A stretch of 64,000 nucleotides of DNA from Thermaurantiacus tibetensis (lineage in GTDB: Bacteria; Pseudomonadota; Alphaproteobacteria; Sphingomonadales; Sphingomonadaceae), in contig NZ_JACHTM010000002.1 of the NCBI RefSeq assembly GCF_015354055.1, forward strand, positions 62,001-126,000, in the 5' to 3' direction. Below the pieces are notes generated by a model. The model was not told the DNA's origin. It searched no databases and saw only the letters and a program-made list of their open reading frames with translations. Position numbers and translations under genes: made by a program. Positions 17,289 to 19,715 of the stretch are shown here, piece by piece (position 1 is the stretch's first letter; every line of letters starts with the position of its first letter).

Positions 17289-17558
17289 ATGGCGAATACT
17301 CCCTCGGCCGAGAAGCGGATCCGCCGCAACGCGCGCCGCGCGGCGATCAACAAGGCCCGCCGGTCACGGATCCGGACCTTCGTCAAGAAGGTCGAGGCGG
17401 CCATCGAGTCGGGCGTCCGCGCCCAGGCGCTCGAGGCCTTCGCTGCGGCCCAGCCCGAGCTGATGCGCGGGGTCTCGAAGGGCGTGCTCCACCGGAACAC
17501 CGCATCGCGCAAGATCTCCCGGCTTGCGAAGCGGATTGCCGCGCTGCCGGAGGCCTGA
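17289..17558 (+). CDS. rpsT: 30S ribosomal protein S20
   Basis: 89 residues, very basic, helical. It starts [20 protein letters not shown] and contains the S20 core [19 protein letters not shown] and [14 protein letters not shown]. It binds 16S rRNA near the 5' domain. The ATG at 17289 gives the normal S20 N-terminus; a TTG/GTG slightly upstream is not needed. GGAGC precedes it. The gene stands alone between mutM and the long dnaA leader. Confidence 0.97.
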
Positions 17559-18257
17559 CGCCGCGCCAGTCGGCGGGCTCCGTCATCCTTTCGTCATCAA
17601 AGCGTCATCCTGACGTCGGGGGCGTCATCCCCGCTTTGCGCCTTGCGCCAACGAGTTGCGGGGCGTTGCTGATACGTTGAGGCGGGCGCCGATTCGGCTG
17701 CTGCAATCCGAATGTCACATCTTCCGTGCGGTTTTTCAGGCACTTGGGGAATTCCCTCGGCGTGCCAAAGCCTTGGCCTGTCAACCGATTTATTTGCAGT
17801 TCCATGAATTTCTGACCCTTGCAGCCGCGCGCGGTTCTTTGGTTTAGTCGCAAGCGGCGGGCCCCCGCGCTGAAGCTGCAAGGCGGAAGCCGCGAATCGG
17901 GCTCCGGGTTCAGGAATGCCGAGCTGGTGAGGGGCGGGTCGGGTCGCCCGCTCCGTTCCGAAGGACAGGCTGCCGGAGCCATCCGGCAGCCGACGGGTTC
18001 GTCTGCCCGCACCTCGCGTGGGGGCGGGGAGGCAAAGTGGACGATGCGAGGGGACATGCGCGCACGACAAGGTCCGGAAAAGAGACCGGAAGCGGGAACG
18101 GAAGCCGTGGGTCGCACGGGGCGCGACACCAGGTCTCCGCGGCGATCCAGATCCGGGCCCTAGCGCCGCTTCCGGCCCGTGCGGGGACGCACGGGCGACA
18201 TCCTCGCCGCCGGGTGCCACCGGCCGACCACATCTCCGTTCGGGAGTTCAGGCGTCC
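17559..18257 (+). other. rpsT-dnaA intergenic region
   Basis: About 700 bp without a convincing gene. The first 300 bp are distinctly more AT-rich than the neighbourhood. They hold the phased CGTCATC repeats, a GGGAATTCCC palindrome (17747-17756) flanked by GGCAC/GTGCC, and a weak promoter-like pair TTGCAG (17819-17824) and GTTTAG (17842-17847). A CTAG at 18160-18163 may be a second -10. I saw no TTATCCACA-type DnaA boxes, so I do not call an origin. The later 400 bp are very GC-rich and could form a structured dnaA leader. Confidence 0.6.
17581..17629. repeat. CGTCATC repeats with 11-bp phasing
   Basis: CGTCATC occurs at 17581, 17592 and 17603, exactly 11 bp apart. A degenerate copy, CGTCGGG, is in phase at 17614, and another exact copy is at 17623. 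One copy per helical turn puts all on the same face of the DNA. It starts 23 bp after rpsT and lies about 630 bp before dnaA. Confidence 0.75.
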
Positions 18258-19715
18258 ATGCCATATCAGGGGCAGTTGCGCAGCGCGTTTGCAGATGAGA
18301 CCAGTCGAGTCCGGCCGGCGGGCGGAGGGGCGTCCACGCGCCCGAGCCCGCCGATGTCGCCGGGCTCGCTGCAGCATGGGCTCGACGCTGCGAAGCGGGC
18401 GCTTCGCCAGGCGCTGGGAGCCGAGACCTACGCCAGCTGGCTCGAGCCGCTCGCGCTGCTCCGAATCGAGGGCAGCTGCGCGGTGGTCGCCCTTCCGTCG
18501 CGCTTCATGGCCGACTGGGTGCGCAACCATTTCGAGGACGAGGTCCGCGCCGCCCTCGCCGAGTCGCTTCCGGGCGTGACAGGCGTCCGCTTCGAGTCCG
18601 CCTGCGCTGCCACGATCGGGCCCGCAGGCAGCGCCCCGGCGGGCGCTCCGGCGCCCGCCCCGGGGGGCGAACCCCTCGGCCTGCCGCTGTTCGAGCCGCG
18701 CTACAGCTTCGACCAGTTCGTGACCGGCAAGTCGAACGAGCTTGCCTTCAACGCCGCGCTGACGCTTGCCAGCGCCGTCGGCCAGAGCGTGACGGTGGGC
18801 TTCAACCCGCTGTTTCTCCACGGGCCGACGGGCTTGGGCAAGACCCACCTCATGCACGCGATCGGCCAGAGCGTGCTCGCCCGGCTGCCGTCGGCCCGGG
18901 TCGTCTACCTCTCGGCCGAACGCTTCATGGTCGAGTTCCTGGCCGCGCTGCGCGAGCGCGAGACCATTCGCTTCAAGCAGCAGTTGCGTTCCGCCGATCT
19001 TCTCATGATCGACGACGTGCAGTTCATCGCCGGCAAGGACTCCACCCAGGAGGAGTTCTTCCACACCATGAACGAGATCATCGGCGCCGGCCGGTGGCTC
19101 GTGATCTCGGCCGACCGCAGCCCGCAGAACCTCGAGGGAATCGAGAGCCGCATTCAGTCGCGCCTCGCCTGGGGCCTGGTTGCCGACATCAACCCGGCCG
19201 ACTACGAGCTCCGCCTCAATATTCTCAAGGCCAAGCTCGCGGCCATGCCGGCCGCAGAAGTGCCGGACCCGGTCATCGAGTTCCTGGCCCGGCGGATCGT
19301 CGCCAATGTCCGCGAGCTCGAGGGCGCGCTCAACCGGGTGATCGCCTACGCCAACCTGACCGGGCGCGCGGTCGATGTGGATTTCGCCCGCGAGGTGCTC
19401 GCCGACGTGCTTCGCGCCCACAGCCGCAAGCTCACCATCGACGACATCCAGCGGCGCGTGGCCGAGCACTATCGCCTGAAGCTTTCGGACCTCGTCTCGC
19501 CCCGCCGGGCGCGCGAGGTGGCACGGCCTCGGCAGGTCGCCATGTATCTTGCGAAGCAGCTCACCCCGCGCTCGCTCCCCGAGATCGGCCGGCGCTTCGG
19601 CGGGCGCGACCACACGACGGTGATGCACGCGGTCAAGCGCATCGAGGCGCTGCGCGCGCAGGACCATGAGCTCGACCGCGACATCCAGCACCTGAAGCGG
19701 GTACTCGACGGCTGA
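18258..19715 (+). CDS. dnaA: chromosomal replication initiator DnaA
   Basis: 485 residues. Domain I (about 35-120) includes the [11 protein letters not shown] segment, then a short Ala/Pro/Gly linker. The AAA+ domain follows with Walker [11 protein letters not shown], Walker [14 protein letters not shown], the ERFMVEFL region and the sensor [10 protein letters not shown]. Domain IV ends with the DNA-binding signature [19 protein letters not shown] 18258 is my choice; the frame is open upstream, and ATG 18354 (MSPGSLQ) is an alternative that would remove a low-complexity N-terminus. A long 5' region suggests post-transcriptional control. Confidence 0.95.

Follow-up and report, generated by a model that had tools for sequence, protein, structure and literature searches.

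A phased direct-repeat array upstream of dnaA in several sphingomonad genera, probably a Pho box

The arrest of replication that accompanies nutrient exhaustion is usually explained either by ppGpp or by loss of the DnaA protein. Transcriptional activation by PhoB classically depends on a -10 hexamer placed about 10 bp past the final unit of the PhoB site, which stands in place of the -35 hexamer. The site itself, the Pho box, consists of two or more 7-bp units related to CTGTCAT that are arranged as direct repeats with an 11-bp period (PMC4415409, PMC3131613), and PhoB bound to such sites can act as an activator or a repressor depending on position (PMC10294691). In Caulobacter, severe cytoplasmic phosphate starvation lowers dnaA RNA (PMC11208175) and the loss of DnaA on starvation is mainly translational (PMC10723716).

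The present work concerns an array of direct repeats found between rpsT and dnaA in a 64,000-nucleotide stretch of the Thermaurantiacus tibetensis genome, referred to below as the window. The array contains more than two CTGTCAT-related direct repeats with an 11-bp period, as a Pho box does. It is probably best read as a Pho box, that is, a tandem PhoB site, through which PhoB probably controls dnaA directly, and the comparisons described below suggest a direct link from phosphate hunger to DNA replication in several sphingomonad genera.

Anatomy of the array and its surroundings

The upstream neighbour of the array, rpsT, encodes ribosomal protein S20 (17289-17558, + strand, stop codon at 17556-17558; TIGR00029, over cut-off), and the presumed target, dnaA, lies at 18258-19715 on the same strand (TIGR00362, over cut-off); two relatives share its MPY start, which supports the ATG at 18258. 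The core of the array consists of three exact CGTCATC half-sites, the Pho-box units, at 17581-17587, 17592-17598 and 17603-17609, which are spaced at an exact 11-bp period and lie on the + strand, with the rpsT stop 22 bp upstream and the dnaA ATG about 650 bp downstream. A degenerate fourth unit, CGTCGGG, follows in phase at 17614-17620 (+), and the triplet formed by units two to four, including this degenerate unit, has a score of 20.2. These three exact copies, the fourth copy in phase and their restriction to one strand are as the first-pass annotation described them. It had also listed a fifth copy near phase: a CGTCATC is indeed present at 17623-17629 (+), but it lies 20 bp past the third copy, off the 11-bp phase, and it may or may not belong to the site. 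The placement of the array inside the most AT-rich part of the region was mistaken, because the array has a GC content of 57% and the AT-rich peak (46-52% GC) is found at 17750-17850, around the dnaA promoter.

The full CGTCATC triplet occurs once in the 2.75-Mb genome. When up to three mismatches are allowed, the sole additional match is the array itself, displaced by one unit, and a control search of the whole genome with the reversed pattern gave no matches. Only two 7-mers in the window are present in three copies with a constant period of 8-30 bp, the array being one of them, and none of 15 first-order Markov shuffles of the window contains such a phased 7-mer. The single heptamer CGTCATC is found 40 times on the two strands of the window, against about 12 occurrences expected from shuffles; the copies outside the array are scattered and probably reflect codon use.

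Several other kinds of element were considered and rejected. No Rfam family was found at the array, and a stable RNA structure across it was ruled out (z = 0.37), as was a dispersed or CRISPR-like repeat, since the triplet is single-copy. The repeat itself does not form a convincing intrinsic rpsT terminator. DnaA boxes and an origin were likewise ruled out, there being no TTWTNCACA with up to one mismatch between rpsT and dnaA, which bears out the earlier remark that the repeats are unlike DnaA boxes. Two GANTC sites of the CcrM type do lie between the two genes, at 17691 and 17894, and GATTCG is frequent at a similar place in relatives, as it is in the methylation-controlled dnaA promoters of other alphaproteobacteria.

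Conservation and spacing relative to the dnaA promoter

In every one of the five genus genomes, rpsT is followed by three GTCAY-like units with exact 11-bp spacing on the strand of dnaA; those in the four other genomes are GTCATcaaagtGTCATgcttctGTCAT, GTCATatcctgTTCATcgaactGTCAT, GTCATgtttctTTCATgagatcGTCAT and GTCATggaaccGTCGCgaaactGTCAC. The spacers between the units have changed among the five genus members, nothing comparable was found on the reverse strand of the post-rpsT regions in the genus, and none of 200 shuffles of each region reached the array scores. In a family-wide sample, forward triplets with a period of 11 bp and a score of at least 19, a threshold that was set after the first arrays had been seen, were detected in 23 of 74 loci and in 9 of 43 genera; the sample was ranked by rpsT similarity, so this share of genera is not an unbiased frequency. 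The same 74 loci contain no triplets on the dnaA strand at periods of 7-10 or 12-18 bp, and a single match in all on the reverse strand. The view suggested by a narrow first sample, that the feature is nearly confined to the genus, was thus overturned by the wider sampling, and about 34 of the 43 genera are without a strong array. Among up to 80 more distant alphaproteobacterial loci, none has a strong array upstream of dnaA. The first-pass annotation had staked its interpretation on conservation of the repeat upstream of dnaA in the closest genomes, and this conservation extends over all five genus genomes and eight further genera.

These comparisons also bear on whether the array could be a product of chance, or a decaying tandem duplication, with no function. 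Such an origin would fit the over-representation of CGTCATC in the window, most of which lies outside the array, but it is refuted by the comparative data, in which a triplet that is single in the genome is retained by every genus member despite changed spacers and in which the 11-bp period is specific across 74 loci; its probability is accordingly close to negligible.

The position of the array was evaluated relative to the dnaA promoter. The predicted core promoter, TTGCAG-N17-GTTTAG, lies at 17819-17847 (+) and is conserved in the five genomes, and a strongly conserved dnaA upstream element (GTCAACCGATTTATTTGCAGTT / GTCAACCGAWWTATTTGCAGTT) at 17780-17801 (+), 39 bp before the start of the -35 hexamer, was used as the spacing reference. 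The core of this element, GTCAAnnnnWTTATT, recurs across the family in most sampled genera, and in some genomes its sequence is an imperfect inverted repeat, GTCA...TGAC. Between the end of the array and the element lie 171, 173, 172, 173 and 171 bp in the five genus genomes (171 bp from the third unit in the window), which places the window array about 210 bp upstream of the dnaA -35. Array positions come from direct measurement, because the G001 array is misplaced when the intergenic regions are aligned with MAFFT. The DNA between array and element is at or near shuffled identity in most genome pairs involving G001 or G004, and the distance from rpsT to the array drifts between 23 and 91 bp across the genus. 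Conservation and the fixed promoter spacing together lend good support to the original interpretation of the repeats as a helically phased site for cooperative protein binding that is connected with dnaA.

The distance between array and element differs from one genus to another: it is 49 bp in all five genomes of genus g84 and also in g93, 115-116 bp in g21, 161 bp in g59 and 174-182 bp in g116, while the two units of g4 share the register of g84. The array-to-dnaA spacing does not correspond to a constant number of helical turns across genera. A single GTCAC half-site in the window, at 17714-17718 (+), falls within 1 bp of the position of the middle unit of the proximal g84 array; a half-site at this position is kept in three of the five genus genomes, with GTCAC/GTCAT counterparts in G002 and G003, and it is possibly a remnant or a weak site. 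Taken together, these sequence relationships are read as indicating that the functional site may have moved during evolution, yet stayed tied to the dnaA promoter.

The region directly after rpsT offers a different purpose for the array. A strong intrinsic terminator after rpsT is present in most family members, and a stricter scan accepted none there in any of the five genomes of the genus (17559-17760 in the window). Because no clear intrinsic terminator is found there, rpsT and dnaA may be partly co-transcribed in the genus of the window. A protein bound to the array could then act as a roadblock that stops read-through from rpsT and replaces the lost terminator, a role that would be compatible with the lack of a -10 hexamer after the array. 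However, in g84, g93 and g21 an intact terminator precedes the array, and the spacing of the array is fixed relative to dnaA rather than to rpsT; for these two reasons a roadblock is demoted as the main purpose of the array and is regarded as quite improbable.

Sharing of the motif with phosphate genes

The genomes of the genus were searched for GTCAT-N6-GTCAT-N6-GTCAT with up to two mismatches and without prior choice of genes. The five genomes contain 28 matches, compared with none for the reversed pattern, and the only exact matches among the 28 are the dnaA arrays of G000 and G001. Boxes directly upstream of pstS were found in the three genomes of the genus in which pstS was resolved, G000 (GTCATaaaaccGACAT), G003 (GTCATaataccGACAT) and G004 (GTCATaaaagcGTCAT); each box is followed by 10 bp and then by TAGGGA, TAGGGC or TACGGG. 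The PstS proteins fall below the TIGR02136 cut-off, yet TIGR02136 is their only match, and in G000 pstS heads a pstSCAB operon. In G000 and G003, phoU-phoB is preceded by a four-unit, partly degenerate array with the same ending as the pstS boxes, so that the related boxes at pstS and phoU-phoB comprise two to four units. The motif of the dnaA array is therefore also present at core phosphate genes of the same genome, as is expected of a Pho box.

Other matches precede genes for TonB-dependent receptors, one of them beside a purple acid phosphatase, an endonuclease/phosphatase-like protein and a secreted proline-threonine-rich protein. In two genomes a triplet precedes a PlcP-like metallophosphoesterase, although the PlcP label is tentative, the protein being a calcineurin-like phosphoesterase. 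A candidate member of the Pho regulon is a secreted lipoprotein-like protein that contains a PTPTPTP stretch and matches nothing in Pfam or NCBIfam; it has a Pho-box-like triplet upstream in several genomes (L049, L057, L045, L245). A phased GTCA array near an alpha/beta hydrolase is kept in four genus genomes (L054, L046, L060, L047) with no obvious gene start after it; in L054 the gene for a LysR-type regulator ends about 500 bp before the array. An apparent groES-groEL pair in G004, judged by ORF sizes only, has a two-unit box upstream (L167:9166).

The association extends beyond the genus. When at most one mismatch was allowed, a search for GTCAY triplets in one genome from each of four other genera recovered the dnaA array in all four and a pstS site in two (G160, G193), and in G199 the dnaA array is the only match in the genome. 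The protein expected to read these sites is also present: the genome's PhoB scores over the NCBIfam cut-off for TIGR02154, its DNA-binding domain matches that of E. coli PhoB (1GXP, 3T72; VYVEQRTVDVHIRRLRKA vs VYVEDRTVDVHIRRLRKA), and its recognition helix is one residue off that of the E. coli protein.

The sharing of the motif favours PhoB over its relatives as the candidate binding factor, which the first-pass annotation left unnamed; the interpretation given in that annotation is partly supported overall. Each genus genome encodes several further OmpR/PhoB-type response regulators, any of which might bind the array and couple a different signal, such as envelope stress, to dnaA. There are precedents for such an arrangement, since the dnaA promoter of M. 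tuberculosis is bound by MtrA, whose motif resembles GTCACAgcg (PMC2945938), and WalR controls dnaA in S. aureus (PMC10746227), and the units of some dnaA arrays are GTCAC and not GTCAT. Against this stands the occurrence of the same phased motif at pstS and phoU-phoB of the same genomes and at pstS of two other genera, and another regulator of this type is consequently considered unlikely, albeit with an appreciable residual chance.

Possible mode of action and comparison with known systems

A TA-type hexamer about 10 bp past the last unit was found in none of 22 dnaA arrays as opposed to 10 of 18 other sites, a comparison that is post hoc, includes some orthologous sites and is indicative only. 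The dnaA array thus departs from the layout of PhoB-activated promoters, and because no -10 follows it, the array probably does not initiate a transcript itself and more likely lowers or modulates dnaA from far upstream. A repressive effect is favoured, since in Caulobacter replication comes to a halt on phosphate starvation and dnaA RNA falls when cytoplasmic starvation is severe, and since much phosphate is stored in DNA. In the proposed sequence of events, PhoR would phosphorylate PhoB when phosphate is scarce; several PhoB molecules, each occupying an 11-bp unit, would bind cooperatively along the same helical face in a head-to-tail array; and from a position about 210 bp ahead of the -35 the bound array would adjust the transcription of dnaA. 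The predicted effect is negative, with less DnaA, fewer initiations and phosphate spared.

We infer with moderate confidence that the array is a Pho box at which phosphorylated PhoB would bind in cells and adjust dnaA transcription. A broader proposition is advanced tentatively and with slightly more doubt than belief. It holds that direct repression or retuning of dnaA by PhoB, exerted from an upstream array of fixed spacing, would constitute in several sphingomonad genera a hard-wired, transcriptional-level stop of new replication rounds on phosphate starvation, and that the site has been relocated repeatedly. Weighing against a PhoB-dnaA connection, the distance to the -35 is large for classical PhoB action, the array has no -10 after it, most sampled genera are without a strong array, spacing differs between genera, the loss of DnaA in starved Caulobacter is mainly translational (PMC10723716), and similar repeats are used by other regulators of the OmpR family. 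In addition, many E. coli PhoB sites, mostly within genes, are transcriptionally inert (PMC10294691), and this, together with the genera that are without a strong array, raises the prospect that the array is a genuine PhoB site that is inert or serves as a local sink, with dnaA not regulated by it. The conservation of the array, its restriction to a single strand and its constant distance from the promoter within each genus over diverged DNA speak against an inert site, which is judged improbable.

If PhoB does act through the array, then phosphate sensing would be wired directly to the initiator of replication. The maintenance of a fixed spacing over otherwise diverged DNA would also offer a way to study how a promoter is influenced by a response-regulator array at a distance.

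No report of a Pho box at dnaA was found in the open-access literature that was searched. For Caulobacter crescentus, in which phosphate starvation lowers the DnaA protein by a main documented route that is translational, the available portions of the two starvation papers (PMC10723716, PMC11208175) likewise make no mention of one. The array resembles the pstS-type Pho box of E. coli (CTGTCAT, 11-bp units) in consisting of direct repeats with a GTCAT core, arranged head to tail on the strand of the target; it differs in that there is no -10 ten bp downstream, the -35 is about 210 bp away, and the target is dnaA instead of a phosphate gene. The closest parallels at dnaA itself are MtrA of Mycobacterium tuberculosis (PMC2945938) and WalR of Staphylococcus aureus (PMC10746227), which belong to other phyla and are different regulators responding to other signals. 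MtrA boxes are situated just downstream of promoters, whereas the array described here lies upstream at a spacing that is fixed within genera, an indirect indication that the site is tied to the dnaA promoter. In both known cases an OmpR/PhoB-type regulator binds the regulatory region of dnaA, as PhoB is predicted to do in the present one.
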